Below, piece by piece: positions 15,236-58,672 of a DNA stretch of 64,000 nt (its first letter is position 1; each line of letters opens with the position of its first letter). The DNA comes from Thermoanaerobacterium xylanolyticum LX-11 (lineage in GTDB: Bacteria; Bacillota; Thermoanaerobacteria; Thermoanaerobacterales; Thermoanaerobacteraceae): contig NC_015555.1 in assembly GCF_000189775.2 (NCBI RefSeq), positions 1,561,001 through 1,625,000 of the forward strand, read 5' to 3'. A program made the translations under genes and the position numbers. Below the pieces are notes generated by a model that was not told the origin of the DNA, searched no databases, and saw only the letters and a program-made list of their open reading frames with translations.

Positions 15236-16417
15236 TTATTTGGCAAGTCCATCATCTTTCAATACTAAATAAATTGCTTTGGCTAAGTATGGCGTGGAAT
15301 TTAAGGCCTCCTCCAAAGTATTGTAATTACTGCCTAGTTCAATCAAAATTCCTTTTTCTGAAAAGTGTTGGTTGTATTCAGCGTACTGATGAATCTCTAT
15401 CCCTAATGATATATCTGGATATAATTCATTCAGTTTATCGCTAATCTGTTTCGCAAACTCGTAATTCTTTTTCCAGTCTTCATTCATATCTGCAGTCCTT
15501 CGAGAACCAATTATGAACATTATTTTCGCAACTGTCTGTCCATTTATTTCCATTGTATATTTTTTTCTGTAATCTTGATTTGGTAGGCTACTTAAAACAG
15601 GTATTGTATCAACCCCTGGCTGCATTACACTTCCATATCCATCACGGTGCAAATCAATAGTTACCTTGATGGAGGGGTATTCCTCCAAATATTTTTTTAC
15701 TGATAAAGAAGAATTGTAGTATGACTGATCGTAATTGTAATCGTGTATTGTGCGATCATGCAAAACGCTAATACCATAATCTTTAGTCAAATATTCTGTC
15801 AAACTGTCTCCTACTCTTACCATGTTGTAATTGAGATCATTTGTTCTATCATATCCATATGCAGCTACATATTTATTTTTTAAAGTCGCAACGTACGATT
15901 CCATCGTATGTGTATGGTAAAGCAATATAAGTGGCTTGCCAGTATCAACGTTACTGACATTTGTCACACTTGTATTCATCTCACTTTTTTTTGATGCTTC
16001 ATTTGCCACTTCGTTATTTTTATTTTGATTAGCATTGAGATTCTCTGCAACTTGCGTATTAGATGTATTATCTTTTTCTCCTTTGTCTATTTGAGCAATA
16101 ATGGGAATTTGATACTTTAATATTTTAAGAGGATCTCTTTGATTTAGATTAAACATTGAAGCCATAGTCAAATCTCTATCGTAAAATCCTTCAGCTTTAT
16201 AGCCAACATCAACAGTTGGCATCGTATAATTTAAAGCAGTTATAAACATGCCATTAATGCTATTGTACTCTTCGGCAAAAGTCTCTGTTTCAAAATTTAT
16301 ATTGGCAGCTTCTATGTCATTTGTCATAAGCCATCTATAAAATAAAATATTAAAAAGCAATAAAATCACAAAAGACACCTTTTTAAGGCGATAATACCTT
16401 AGCGAACTTCTGTACAA
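15236..16417 (-). CDS. spoIIP: stage II sporulation protein P (SpoIIP), engulfment amidase/endopeptidase
   Basis: Peptidoglycan hydrolase of the SpoIID-SpoIIP-SpoIIM engulfment machine in the mother cell membrane. N-terminal membrane anchor (VSFVILLLFNILFYRWL), a Asn/Thr/Ser-rich spacer (about 125-160), then the SpoIIP domain with LILLYHTHTMESY, VTIDLHRDG, MFIIGSRR, IEIHQYAEYNQHFS and GILIELGSNYNTLEEA. Start TTG 16417 with GAGAGGTG six bases upstream; that SD lies in the 3' arm of a long hairpin (16420-16472). About 393 aa. gpr lies directly upstream, as in Bacillus (gpr-spoIIP). Confidence 0.94.
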   Translation of the reverse strand: MYRSSLRYYRLKKVSFVILLLFNILFYRWLMTNDIEAANINFETETFAEEYNSINGMFITALNYTMPTVDVGYKAEGFYDRDLTMASMFNLNQRDPLKILKYQIPIIAQIDKGEKDNTSNTQVAENLNANQNKNNEVANEASKKSEMNTSVTNVSNVDTGKPLILLYHTHTMESYVATLKNKYVAAYGYDRTNDLNYNMVRVGDSLTEYLTKDYGISVLHDRTIHDYNYDQSYYNSSLSVKKYLEEYPSIKVTIDLHRDGYGSVMQPGVDTIPVLSSLPNQDYRKKYTMEINGQTVAKIMFIIGSRRTADMNEDWKKNYEFAKQISDKLNELYPDISLGIEIHQYAEYNQHFSEKGILIELGSNYNTLEEALNSTPYLAKAIYLVLKDDGLAK

Positions 16418-16419
16418 TG

Positions 16420-16472
16420 AAAGCACCTCTCTTTGGTTTTATACTATAAATTATTCACAAGAGAAGTGCTTT
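16420..16472 (-). promoter_or_regulatory. hairpin sequestering the spoIIP ribosome-binding site
   Basis: Inverted repeat in the gpr-spoIIP gap: AAAGCACTTCTCTT (16472-16459 read on the minus strand) pairs with AAGAGAGGTGCTTT (16433-16420), 13 of 14 Watson-Crick pairs plus one G-U, with a 25-base AT-rich loop. The 3' arm contains the SD of spoIIP and ends two bases before its TTG start. No T-tract follows, so it is not a terminator. A gpr read-through mRNA would have its SD paired. Confidence 0.8.
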
Positions 16473-16481
16473 ATTACTAAT

Positions 16482-17453
16482 TTAATGTACAAGTTGGTTC
16501 ATCTCATCTACTGTCAAATTTGGTTGTAAAGCTAAATTAATTCCTCTTGACAAAATAGATGAAATATTTTTAATAAGAAGATCTATCTCCTTTGGCGTGA
16601 CTATGAGATTTTCTTCAGGACTTAATACCTCTTTTATTAAAGCGTATTTATCTTCATCATTCATATTTTTCAATACATTGTATAGAGGACTATCGCTTTC
16701 TACATTGTTTTTTAATGCACTTTCAAGATGTTCTATAGCATCATTGGCAATTGTAGCTGCATCTACTACGGTTGGAACACCTATCGCAATTACAGGAACA
16801 CCTAAGCTTTCCATGTTGATAGCAGATCTTTTATTCCCTATTCCAGATCCAGGACTAATGCCTGTATTTGAAATCTGTATTGTTGTCGCAAGCCTTTCAA
16901 CTCGCCTCGATGCAAGAGCATCTATTGTGATGACTAGATCAGGTTTTATCTTATCAACAACGCTTTTAACAATTTCTGCCGTCTCAATACCTGTTATACC
17001 TAATACACCGGGAGCCATGGCACTTACAGCACATATATTTTCGCCAAACTGCAGAGGTGCTAATTCTTTCAAATGGCGAGTCACAACAATATTTTCAATT
17101 GCTTTTGGCCCAAGTGCATCTGGCGTCACATTCCAATTGCCTAAACCTATTACAAGGACTTTCATATTGACATTAACATTAGAGATTTTCTTTATTACAT
17201 CGGCAAGTTTTTGTGCTACTTTGTCTTCAAGTTCAATATCCCTGTACTTTAAGTCAGGAACCTCTATAGTTATATAATCTCCTATAGCTTTTCCCATCGC
17301 TTTAGCACCGTCATCGTCCACAATGGTTACTTTAACTATTTTTATGTTGTCATCTTGGCTTTCATCTACTAAAACGCCTGGGATCTCTCCCGCATGTCCA
17401 CCTTTATACATTTCACGGGCTTCAACAGCAAGATCTGTCCTTATATTGAACAT
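16482..17453 (-). CDS. gpr: germination protease GPR
   Basis: Spore endopeptidase (peptidase family A25) that degrades small acid-soluble spore proteins at germination. It is made as a zymogen; the N-terminus MFNIRTDLAVEAREMY matches the autoprocessed propeptide region. Further markers are VLVIGLGNWNVTPDALGPKAI, SAMAPGVLGITGIETAEIV and ITIDALASRRVERLATTIQISNTGISPGSGIGNKR (abbreviated by position, residues about 175-210). 323 aa, slightly shorter than the Bacillus form. Located directly upstream of spoIIP. Confidence 0.96.
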   Translation of the reverse strand: MFNIRTDLAVEAREMYKGGHAGEIPGVLVDESQDDNIKIVKVTIVDDDGAKAMGKAIGDYITIEVPDLKYRDIELEDKVAQKLADVIKKISNVNVNMKVLVIGLGNWNVTPDALGPKAIENIVVTRHLKELAPLQFGENICAVSAMAPGVLGITGIETAEIVKSVVDKIKPDLVITIDALASRRVERLATTIQISNTGISPGSGIGNKRSAINMESLGVPVIAIGVPTVVDAATIANDAIEHLESALKNNVESDSPLYNVLKNMNDEDKYALIKEVLSPEENLIVTPKEIDLLIKNISSILSRGINLALQPNLTVDEMNQLVH

Positions 17454-57016: not shown

Positions 57017-57880
57017 CTATTTTACCTTGCTTAAGATTTCGCCAATAGGTAAGTAAAGTCCATTTTCTATGGCAAAATCAAAAAGCTCTGTCTCCGTAAG
57101 TCTTTTTTTCTCTTTCAAATTTTTATCCAACACAACTATTATATGATATTTTAATGGCAAAAAACAATTGATTATTTTGATTAATTTTTGATTTTCCAAC
57201 ACTGCTATTGTCCTGACATTCATAACTCCACGCCTAAATAACTCTTCTTTTTTATATATTAAATCTCTCAAGTTAAAATACTCAGATAGTTTCCGCTCAT
57301 TTCTGGCAGATATTATGAGAAATACAGCCATAGCAATCAATACATAATTTTTATTCCCATTTACAATCATAAGTATACTGCCGTATATGAGCAATAAAGA
57401 TAACACATATGAAATCTTGACTGCTACGTTATTAGCTCTGGTTAAACCTATGAAATTGGACAAAACAGACTTCAAAGCTCTTCCTCCATCTAAAGGTACA
57501 CCAGGCAAAAGGTTAAATATACACATCAGAACATTAATTTTTATAAGGTAATCTAATTGAGTTCCAATAATTTGGCTTACTATAATAAGCACCATAATAA
57601 AAACAGCATTTGACAAAGGCCCCGCTAATGCGATGATGATTTCTAAATCAGGCCTTATAAAAATCTCACTGTCGAAAACAGCCGCTCCGCCAAAAGGGAA
57701 TACTTCTATCTGAATCATATTTATATTTAATTTTTTTGCCACGAAATAGTGGCTTGCTTCATGTATTGCTACAGTTAAGATTATATCAATAAGTTCAATA
57801 TAAAGACCAGCTAATACAAGAAACAATATAAAAACCCACGTAAATGGGTTTACCTTTATTTTCACATCGTCAATTTTCAT
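57017..57880 (-). CDS. spoIVFB: site-2 protease, SpoIVFB-like (M50)
   Basis: Membrane metalloprotease; in Bacillus SpoIVFB cleaves pro-sigmaK. Zn ligands HEASH at residues 40-44 and the third ligand in NLLPGVPLDGGR (Asp131), within six or so membrane segments, plus a soluble C-terminal part (about 200-287; a CBS-like region) typical of SpoIVFB. ATG 57880 overlaps the end of the M23-like gene by 11 bases. The spoIVFA-spoIVFB pair arrangement supports the name, but orthology to the sigmaK-processing enzyme is not proven. Confidence 0.82.
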   Translation of the reverse strand: MKIDDVKIKVNPFTWVFILFLVLAGLYIELIDIILTVAIHEASHYFVAKKLNINMIQIEVFPFGGAAVFDSEIFIRPDLEIIIALAGPLSNAVFIMVLIIVSQIIGTQLDYLIKINVLMCIFNLLPGVPLDGGRALKSVLSNFIGLTRANNVAVKISYVLSLLLIYGSILMIVNGNKNYVLIAMAVFLIISARNERKLSEYFNLRDLIYKKEELFRRGVMNVRTIAVLENQKLIKIINCFLPLKYHIIVVLDKNLKEKKRLTETELFDFAIENGLYLPIGEILSKVK

Positions 57881-58616
57881 TTTTGACATCACTTATTGCT
57901 GGATTAAAGTCTATCTTTGATTCAGGATCGACTGGTTTTCCGTTTTCCCATATTTCAAAATGCATCATAGCACTATTGTTGATGCCAGCGCTAACTTTTC
58001 CAATCGTCTGACCTTTAAGCACTTTATCTCCGACTTTTACATCTACTTCAGAGAGGTATGCATAGACAGAGCGTATGTCACCATCATGTTTTATTACAAC
58101 CACTTTTCCCCAGTCAGGATTAGCATTATCCGCTATCATGACTTCTCCATCCAATACAGCAACTACTGGCCTATCGCTGGATACGCTTATGTCAATTCCG
58201 TCGTTTTTCACTTCTTTCGAAGTAGAAGAATCTACTTTTGTACCAAATGTAGACACTACAACTCCATCAACAGGTCTTATCATCCCACTACTTACAACTT
58301 GAGTTGTAGTACTTTTTGAATCATCTGCTTTATTTGAAAACACTTTTACAACGTCGTCTTTTAACGAAGGTATCCTGCTCATGACAAGTTTAAGCCCTTT
58401 TTTAGTATTTTCATAGTTAGAATTATAATTAAGGACTGTTTTTACTTCGTCTACAGTTTTATTTGTAGCTGGAACATTTATGGCTTTAAAAAGCATGACT
58501 ACGCCTAAAATCAAAAGACAAACTATCAATTGGTTTTCCAAAAGACCAAAATACTTTTTAAAATTACTGATGCGATTTTTTGAATAGCTAACATATTGCC
58601 ATTTGTTAGGTTTCAT
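57870..58616 (-). CDS. spoIVFA: SpoIVFA-like protein with degenerate M23 (LytM) domain
   Basis: 248 aa. Basic N-terminus, one membrane segment (LIVCLLILGVVMLF, ~30-43), spacer, and a LytM-like domain from ~115. The active-site pattern is broken: first ligand position is Asn138 in NDGID (Asp142 kept), the usual His in the YAHL block is Tyr187 (YAYL), and the HxH motif is MMH (only His219). It is therefore probably non-enzymatic, as in Bacillus SpoIVFA, which holds SpoIVFB inactive. ATG 58616; its SD is inside a 13-bp stem (58620-58665). Confidence 0.8.
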   Translation of the reverse strand: MKPNKWQYVSYSKNRISNFKKYFGLLENQLIVCLLILGVVMLFKAINVPATNKTVDEVKTVLNYNSNYENTKKGLKLVMSRIPSLKDDVVKVFSNKADDSKSTTTQVVSSGMIRPVDGVVVSTFGTKVDSSTSKEVKNDGIDISVSSDRPVVAVLDGEVMIADNANPDWGKVVVIKHDGDIRSVYAYLSEVDVKVGDKVLKGQTIGKVSAGINNSAMMHFEIWENGKPVDPESKIDFNPAISDVKNEN

Positions 58617-58619
58617 AAG

Positions 58620-58665
58620 ATAAACCTCCTTTACTATATTTATATTACATAGAAAGGAGGTTTAT
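58620..58665 (-). promoter_or_regulatory. hairpin sequestering the spoIVFA ribosome-binding site
   Basis: Perfect 13-bp inverted repeat: on the minus strand ATAAACCTCCTTT (58665-58653), 20-base AT-rich loop, AAAGGAGGTTTAT (58632-58620), then CTTATG. The 3' arm is the SD itself; the 5' arm begins seven bases after the mgsA stop. No T-tract follows in the gene direction. On an mgsA read-through mRNA the SD would be fully paired. Confidence 0.85.
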
Positions 58666-58672
58666 GATTTTT

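Follow-up and report, generated by a model that had tools for sequence, protein, structure and literature searches.

A predicted promoter-embedded translational insulator ahead of spoIIP in Thermoanaerobacterium

Introduction

Transposase genes of the IS10/IS50 type carry fold-back stems that mask the Shine-Dalgarno (SD) sequence only on transcripts entering from outside. In phage T4, the long early transcripts of gene e (lysozyme), and also those of soc and I-TevI, fold a helix over the SD, and about 100-fold less lysozyme is made from the long early transcripts of gene e; late mRNA escapes the helix, as the T4 late promoters are situated within the stretch that encodes its 5′ strand (PMC3014915). 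In Bacillus subtilis, a stem of 20+ bp ahead of sigG (spoIIIG) has been proposed to block translation of read-through RNA from spoIIGA-sigE, and this large stem is unable to form in RNA started at PsigG (PMC5942855).

Here we describe a hairpin between gpr and spoIIP of Thermoanaerobacterium xylanolyticum LX-11, for which T4 gene e is the closest case. The shared logic is that read-through RNA masks the SD while the promoter lies in the 5′ strand. Gene e, however, belongs to a phage and is served by T4 late promoters, whereas the present arrangement concerns a chromosomal developmental regulon with sigma-E-type promoters, has its arm in the promoter spacer and is found at several genes. The B. 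subtilis sigG gene is a forespore gene with a sigma-F/G promoter, while in the present genus the stem stands at sigma-E-class genes and not at sigG, where a stem was looked for and none was found. The transposase stems, for their part, guard against the activation of mobile elements, while the arrangement at spoIIP would serve development.

Results

Position and fold of the hairpin

The window, a stretch of 64,000 nucleotides, contains the following features around the start of spoIIP:

16482..17453, minus strand: gpr (germination protease), the gene upstream of spoIIP (Pfam Peptidase_A25, E 6e-97)
16484-16482, minus strand: gpr stop codon TAA
16459..16472, minus strand: 5′ arm AAAGCACTTCTCTT (anti-SD), over the end of the -35 element and most of the promoter spacer
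16458-16434, minus strand: hairpin loop, 25 nt
16420..16433, minus strand: 3′ arm AAGAGAGGTGCTTT, including the spoIIP SD
15236..16417, minus strand: spoIIP with a TTG start (codon 16417-16415; Pfam SpoIIP, E 2e-70)

The gpr product is 98% identical to its Thermoanaerobacterium saccharolyticum counterpart, and the spoIIP product also lies above the cut-off for NCBIfam TIGR02867. The hairpin described in the initial annotation proved correct to the base: beginning 9 nt past the gpr stop, AAAGCACTTCTCTT forms 13 Watson-Crick pairs and one G-U with AAGAGAGGTGCTTT across the 25-base loop, and the RNA fold has a z of -4.4, with none of 200 dinucleotide shuffles folding equally well. The coordinates likewise place the SD, AGAGAGG, inside the 3′ arm, the end of which is two bases from the TTG, as had been claimed. 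Structure prediction on a longer read-through RNA gave a stable helix over this SD. We regard the TTG as the likely start, because the GTG at 16426 falls inside the arm and its counterpart is out of frame in relatives. The longer reading frame proposed by the ORF caller, which begins at this GTG and therefore within the 3′ arm, was rejected; several Thermoanaerobacter-like orthologues, L028 and L032 among them, have the corresponding codon in another frame.

Ranked by SD/upstream duplex, spoIIP and a spoIVFA-like gene lead the 58 genes called in the window, at -21.6 and -21.0 kcal/mol; the third-ranked reaches -16.9 kcal/mol. The stem before spoIVFA, to which the initial annotation had also drawn attention, is real.

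Because the stem immediately follows gpr, at a place occupied by genuine terminators in other lineages, it might be read as an intrinsic terminator or attenuator for gpr. Yet it is not a GC-rich stem followed by a T-tract: the T-tract is absent, as had been noted before, a terminator scan was empty at the stem, the loop spans 25 nt and the 3′ arm reaches into the start codon region. A terminator is therefore scarcely credible here.

The 5′ arm lies in a predicted sigma-E-type promoter

What the initial annotation overlooked is that the 5′ arm sits in a predicted sigma-E-type promoter (TAATAAA-14-AATAATTT), composed as follows:

16470..16476, minus strand: predicted sigma-E -35 element TAATAAA, 5 nt past the gpr stop (consensus match)
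16456..16469, minus strand: 14-nt promoter spacer GCACTTCTCTTGTG, whose bases make up the bulk of the 5′ arm
16448..16455, minus strand: predicted sigma-E -10 element AATAATTT, within the loop
16438..16443, minus strand: predicted range of the sigma-E transcription start, within the loop, derived from the position of the -10 element

The -35 element has an ATA core and is followed, after about 14 nt, by a CATANNNT-like -10 element; an ATA core at -35 is the mark of sigma-E, and AC that of sigma-K (PMC3789822). In orthologues, the -35 element reads TAATAAA, TCATAAT or GAATAAT, and almost every orthologue of the order has a spacer of 14 nt, with the 5′ arm conserved within it. Use of sigma-E is predicted from these motifs, and the start was placed 5-10 bases downstream of the -10 element. 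Such a start lies within the loop, so that transcripts coming from gpr would contain both arms and promoter-started RNA the SD arm alone.

These relations suggest how the hairpin may work, and we consider it very probable that it acts as a translational insulator embedded in the promoter. On this view, the sigma-E-type promoter that serves spoIIP itself would hold the anti-SD arm between its -35 and -10 elements. A transcript entering from gpr would carry both arms, fold and hide the spoIIP SD, so that forespore read-through would be kept silent; a transcript started at the promoter would begin in the loop, possess only the 3′ arm and be translated. With its 5′ arm inside the promoter, the stem would thus be escaped by sigma-E mRNA, and the expression of spoIIP would depend on its own promoter alone, regardless of the neighbouring gene. 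The energetics favour this reading, in which both the read-through and the translational block are predicted. At 60 °C, a temperature at which the genus may plausibly grow, the spoIIP SD is opened at a cost of 9.9 kcal/mol in the read-through RNA versus 1.2 in the predicted sigma-E RNA; the values at 37 °C are 11.5 and 3.5 kcal/mol. Counting against it, in some orthologues (L020, L041) the SD also pairs with coding sequence, and opening costs 7-9 kcal/mol in the predicted sigma-E mRNA. Judged from sequence, the earlier proposal that the SD is sequestered against read-through is supported, and the location of the 5′ arm strengthens the case.

Conservation and covariation of the stem

The arrangement is kept in all nine genomes of the genus, in the two other genera of the family and in two further families of the order. 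We aligned 11 sequences from four families and one more distant lineage, all distinct, in which 91% of the pair cells are paired and nine of the 14 pairs change on both sides; the rows were aligned manually, with promoter and SD as anchors, a procedure that biases towards pairing and is addressed by slid controls. None of 500 shuffles matched this covariation, and slid registers failed. Compensatory changes have preserved the stem in three families of the order as well as among more distant Firmicutes. With a predicted SD helix, compensatory change and a predicted start past the 5′ strand, spoIIP shows three of the features that mark origin-discriminating leaders of the T4 gene e and sigG type.

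This variability also bears on whether the inverted repeat acts as DNA, bound over the promoter by a regulator such as SpoIIID. The symmetric element does overlap the promoter, but a protein site would conserve sequence, whereas here the sequence varies freely while pairing is kept, G-U pairs are tolerated and one arm always lies over the SD; we give this reading next to no credence.

SD-masking stems are the usual output of thermosensors and ligand-bound leaders, and the presence of the stem, with its fold z-score, could accordingly be counted in favour of a switchable translational control acting on read-through RNA. We hold such a switch to be highly unlikely: an Rfam search of the window returned only two tRNAs above the gathering score and nothing at the stem, sequence conservation is limited to promoter and SD, and the loop is conserved in neither length nor sequence. 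In L025, from another genus of the family, the gpr-spoIIP gap has expanded to 143 nt, yet the arms remain complementary to each other. The enlarged loop of L025 contains a further internal fold, with the SD stem retained.

L041, from another family of the class, has a stem in the same place, AAAACCCTCTGCT/AGCAGGGGGTTTT, that is quite unlike the others. The spacer/SD duplex was matched by none of 200 shuffles in f1, f2, f3, f4g8, f16, f64, f78, L010 and L013, the last five being more distant Firmicutes with stems of their own; weaker stems occur in f69, L004, L007, L008 and f13, also more distant Firmicutes. Where the stem is missing, gpr is usually followed by a terminator (f38, f84, f51, most of f65, f96). 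In f38 and f84, the T-tract of the terminator overlaps the -35-like TCATTTT of a sigma-E-like spoIIP promoter; the gaps L051-L056 and L059-L061 show such an overlap. Against the insulator reading, Caldicellulosiruptor-like genomes (f4g7) retain the promoter, yet their stem is slight or missing and they have no terminator. In Clostridium sp. CCUG 7971 (L009), spoIIP starts 15 nt past the gpr stop, with no stem and no promoter in the gap, a layout as expected for a simple read-through pair like the C. difficile gpr-spoIIP operon under sigma-F.

Recurrence in the same genome

We scanned 41 stretches, the window and 40 others evenly spaced, covering 864 kb of the 2.53 Mb single-contig genome, in which a simple rule identified 679 genes with an SD. 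At 20 of these genes, versus 2.1 expected, the SD/upstream duplex reached -20 kcal/mol or better; half of the 20 belong to copies of transposase-like genes. Several such multicopy genes have strong SD-masking stems at the start codon (L168:8852-10225, L152:14862-16271, L142:11957-13153 and copies), presumably as a guard against transcription running in from their neighbours.

A loose promoter filter was discarded, as it let 558 of the 679 genes pass, and a strict one was used because of this: a strict sigma-E promoter together with a spacer/SD duplex of -16 or better. Four of 666 genes passed, against 0.06 expected from shuffles: spoIIM, pdaB, spoIIP and the spoIVFA-like gene. Full independence can be claimed for the first two alone, since the promoter weights were written after viewing spoIIP gaps and the spoIVFA stem had been flagged beforehand. 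This excess supports a recurrent insulator in the lineage, which the initial annotation had surmised. The spoIIM product is above the cut-off of TIGR02831, and the best NCBIfam match of pdaB is TIGR02764, at 229 bits against a cut-off of 237. From B. subtilis, we take all four genes to be of the sigma-E class. The test for enrichment among sporulation genes that the initial annotation had proposed, run on these 864 kb, was positive: all four strict hits have sporulation names, all of them sigma-E-class, versus one of 20 randomly drawn genes (Fisher p = 4.7e-4).

The spoIVFA-like gene lies in the window, with this layout:

58661..58667, minus strand: -35 element TCATAAA, 5 nt past the stop of the upstream MGS-like gene
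58653..58665, minus strand: 5′ arm ATAAACCTCCTTT
58639..58646, minus strand: -10 element AATATAAA, in the loop
58620..58632, minus strand: 3′ arm AAAGGAGGTTTAT with the SD
57870..58616, minus strand: spoIVFA-like M23 gene (Pfam Peptidase_M23)
57017-57892: M50 (spoIVFB-like) protease gene, directly downstream of the spoIVFA-like gene (Pfam Peptidase_M50)

The name spoIVFA is positional, given to an M23 gene ahead of an M50 gene; true SpoIVFA orthologues have been reported absent from clostridia (PMC3533761). In the family, the stems of both spoIIM and the spoIVFA-like gene persist in altered sequence, and most members of the order keep them; for the spoIVFA-like gene this includes the order's other families. 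At the f3 spoIIM genes, stems are weak or absent, which counts against the insulator.

In all four genes, the duplexes, the promoter-like motifs and their shared position were computed directly. So was the energy needed at 60 °C to open the SD, which is 7.6-10.9 kcal/mol in read-through RNA and 0.6-1.9 kcal/mol in the predicted sigma-E mRNA. These values bear on the idea that the stem adjusts how well spoIIP is translated whatever the transcript, in the manner of the small hairpin at the sigG ribosome-binding site. SD-occluding hairpins do dampen sigG 2-4-fold (PMC5942855), but here transcription of each of the four genes is predicted to start downstream of the 5′ arm, which would be absent from their own mRNA, where opening the SD takes about 1-2 kcal/mol. 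A general damper is, to our judgement, quite unlikely, and the insulator remains our preferred reading: the same device would silence read-through from the genes upstream of the spoIVFA-like gene, spoIIM and pdaB.

Several further genes have stems over the SD. The SD of spoIIE (L145:16599-18950, plus strand) lies in a stem of 11 pairs; immediately downstream of spoIIE, a vWA gene (L145:19012-19701, plus strand) has a 16-pair SD stem and an imperfect sigma-E-like promoter. Candidate further members with strong SD stems are L170:1411-2868, L155:5556-7058, L170:12440-13300, L161:13961-15115 and L146:10776-12020, which comprise YcdB/YpeB-like, LonB-like AAA, D-Ala-D-Ala carboxypeptidase and lipase-like genes. 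A soj/parA-like gene (L180:15732-16511, minus strand) has an 11-pair stem over its SD, AATCACCCCGT.../...CGGGGTGATAA, with a parS-like palindrome, TTGTTCCACATGGAACAA, and a TATAAT box in the loop; Spo0J binding, promoter and SD masking may therefore be interlinked at this gene.

Upstream neighbours

All four device genes are preceded by gaps of about 55-70 nt. The spoIVFA-like gene follows an MGS-domain (methylglyoxal-synthase-like) gene, itself behind a rodA-like gene; spoIIM follows an unnamed gene of 388 aa; and pdaB has a HAD-family gene and a GH65 sugar-enzyme gene upstream. The initial annotation had reasoned that read-through from gpr would bring spoIIP translation into the wrong cell. 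This holds in so far as spoIIP does follow a forespore gene, but gpr is the sole one among the four upstream neighbours, the other three devices standing behind genes not known as sporulation genes. The common factor is therefore a mother-cell gene close behind a foreign co-directional gene, rather than forespore versus mother cell. Nor is SpoIIP made in the forespore simply wrong, since in B. subtilis and C. difficile spoIIP is transcribed by sigma-F besides sigma-E (PMC3789822). Silent read-through from gpr would make the present lineage stricter than either.

Discussion

The principle invoked here is already known from T4 gene e and from the sigG read-through hairpin. What appears to be new, against the open literature searched, is its repeated use in one developmental regulon, the placement of the arm in the promoter spacer and the alternation with terminators. 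More broadly, clostridial sporulation might include a regulon-wide check of transcript origin, in which sigma-E-class genes lying close behind foreign genes carry a spacer anti-SD arm, interchangeable with a terminator, and mother-cell proteins are made only from RNA initiated in the mother cell; to us, this wider proposal could as well hold as fail.

Sporulation needs the right proteins at the right time and in the right cell, for which sigma factors alone are usually credited. If several sigma-E genes reject transcripts by origin, transcript profiles would overstate their expression. The order of genes in compact genomes would become explicable, and an anti-SD arm in the 14 nt ahead of an AATA/CATA box would mark a developmental promoter. 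The device would also represent a compact, terminator-free insulator.
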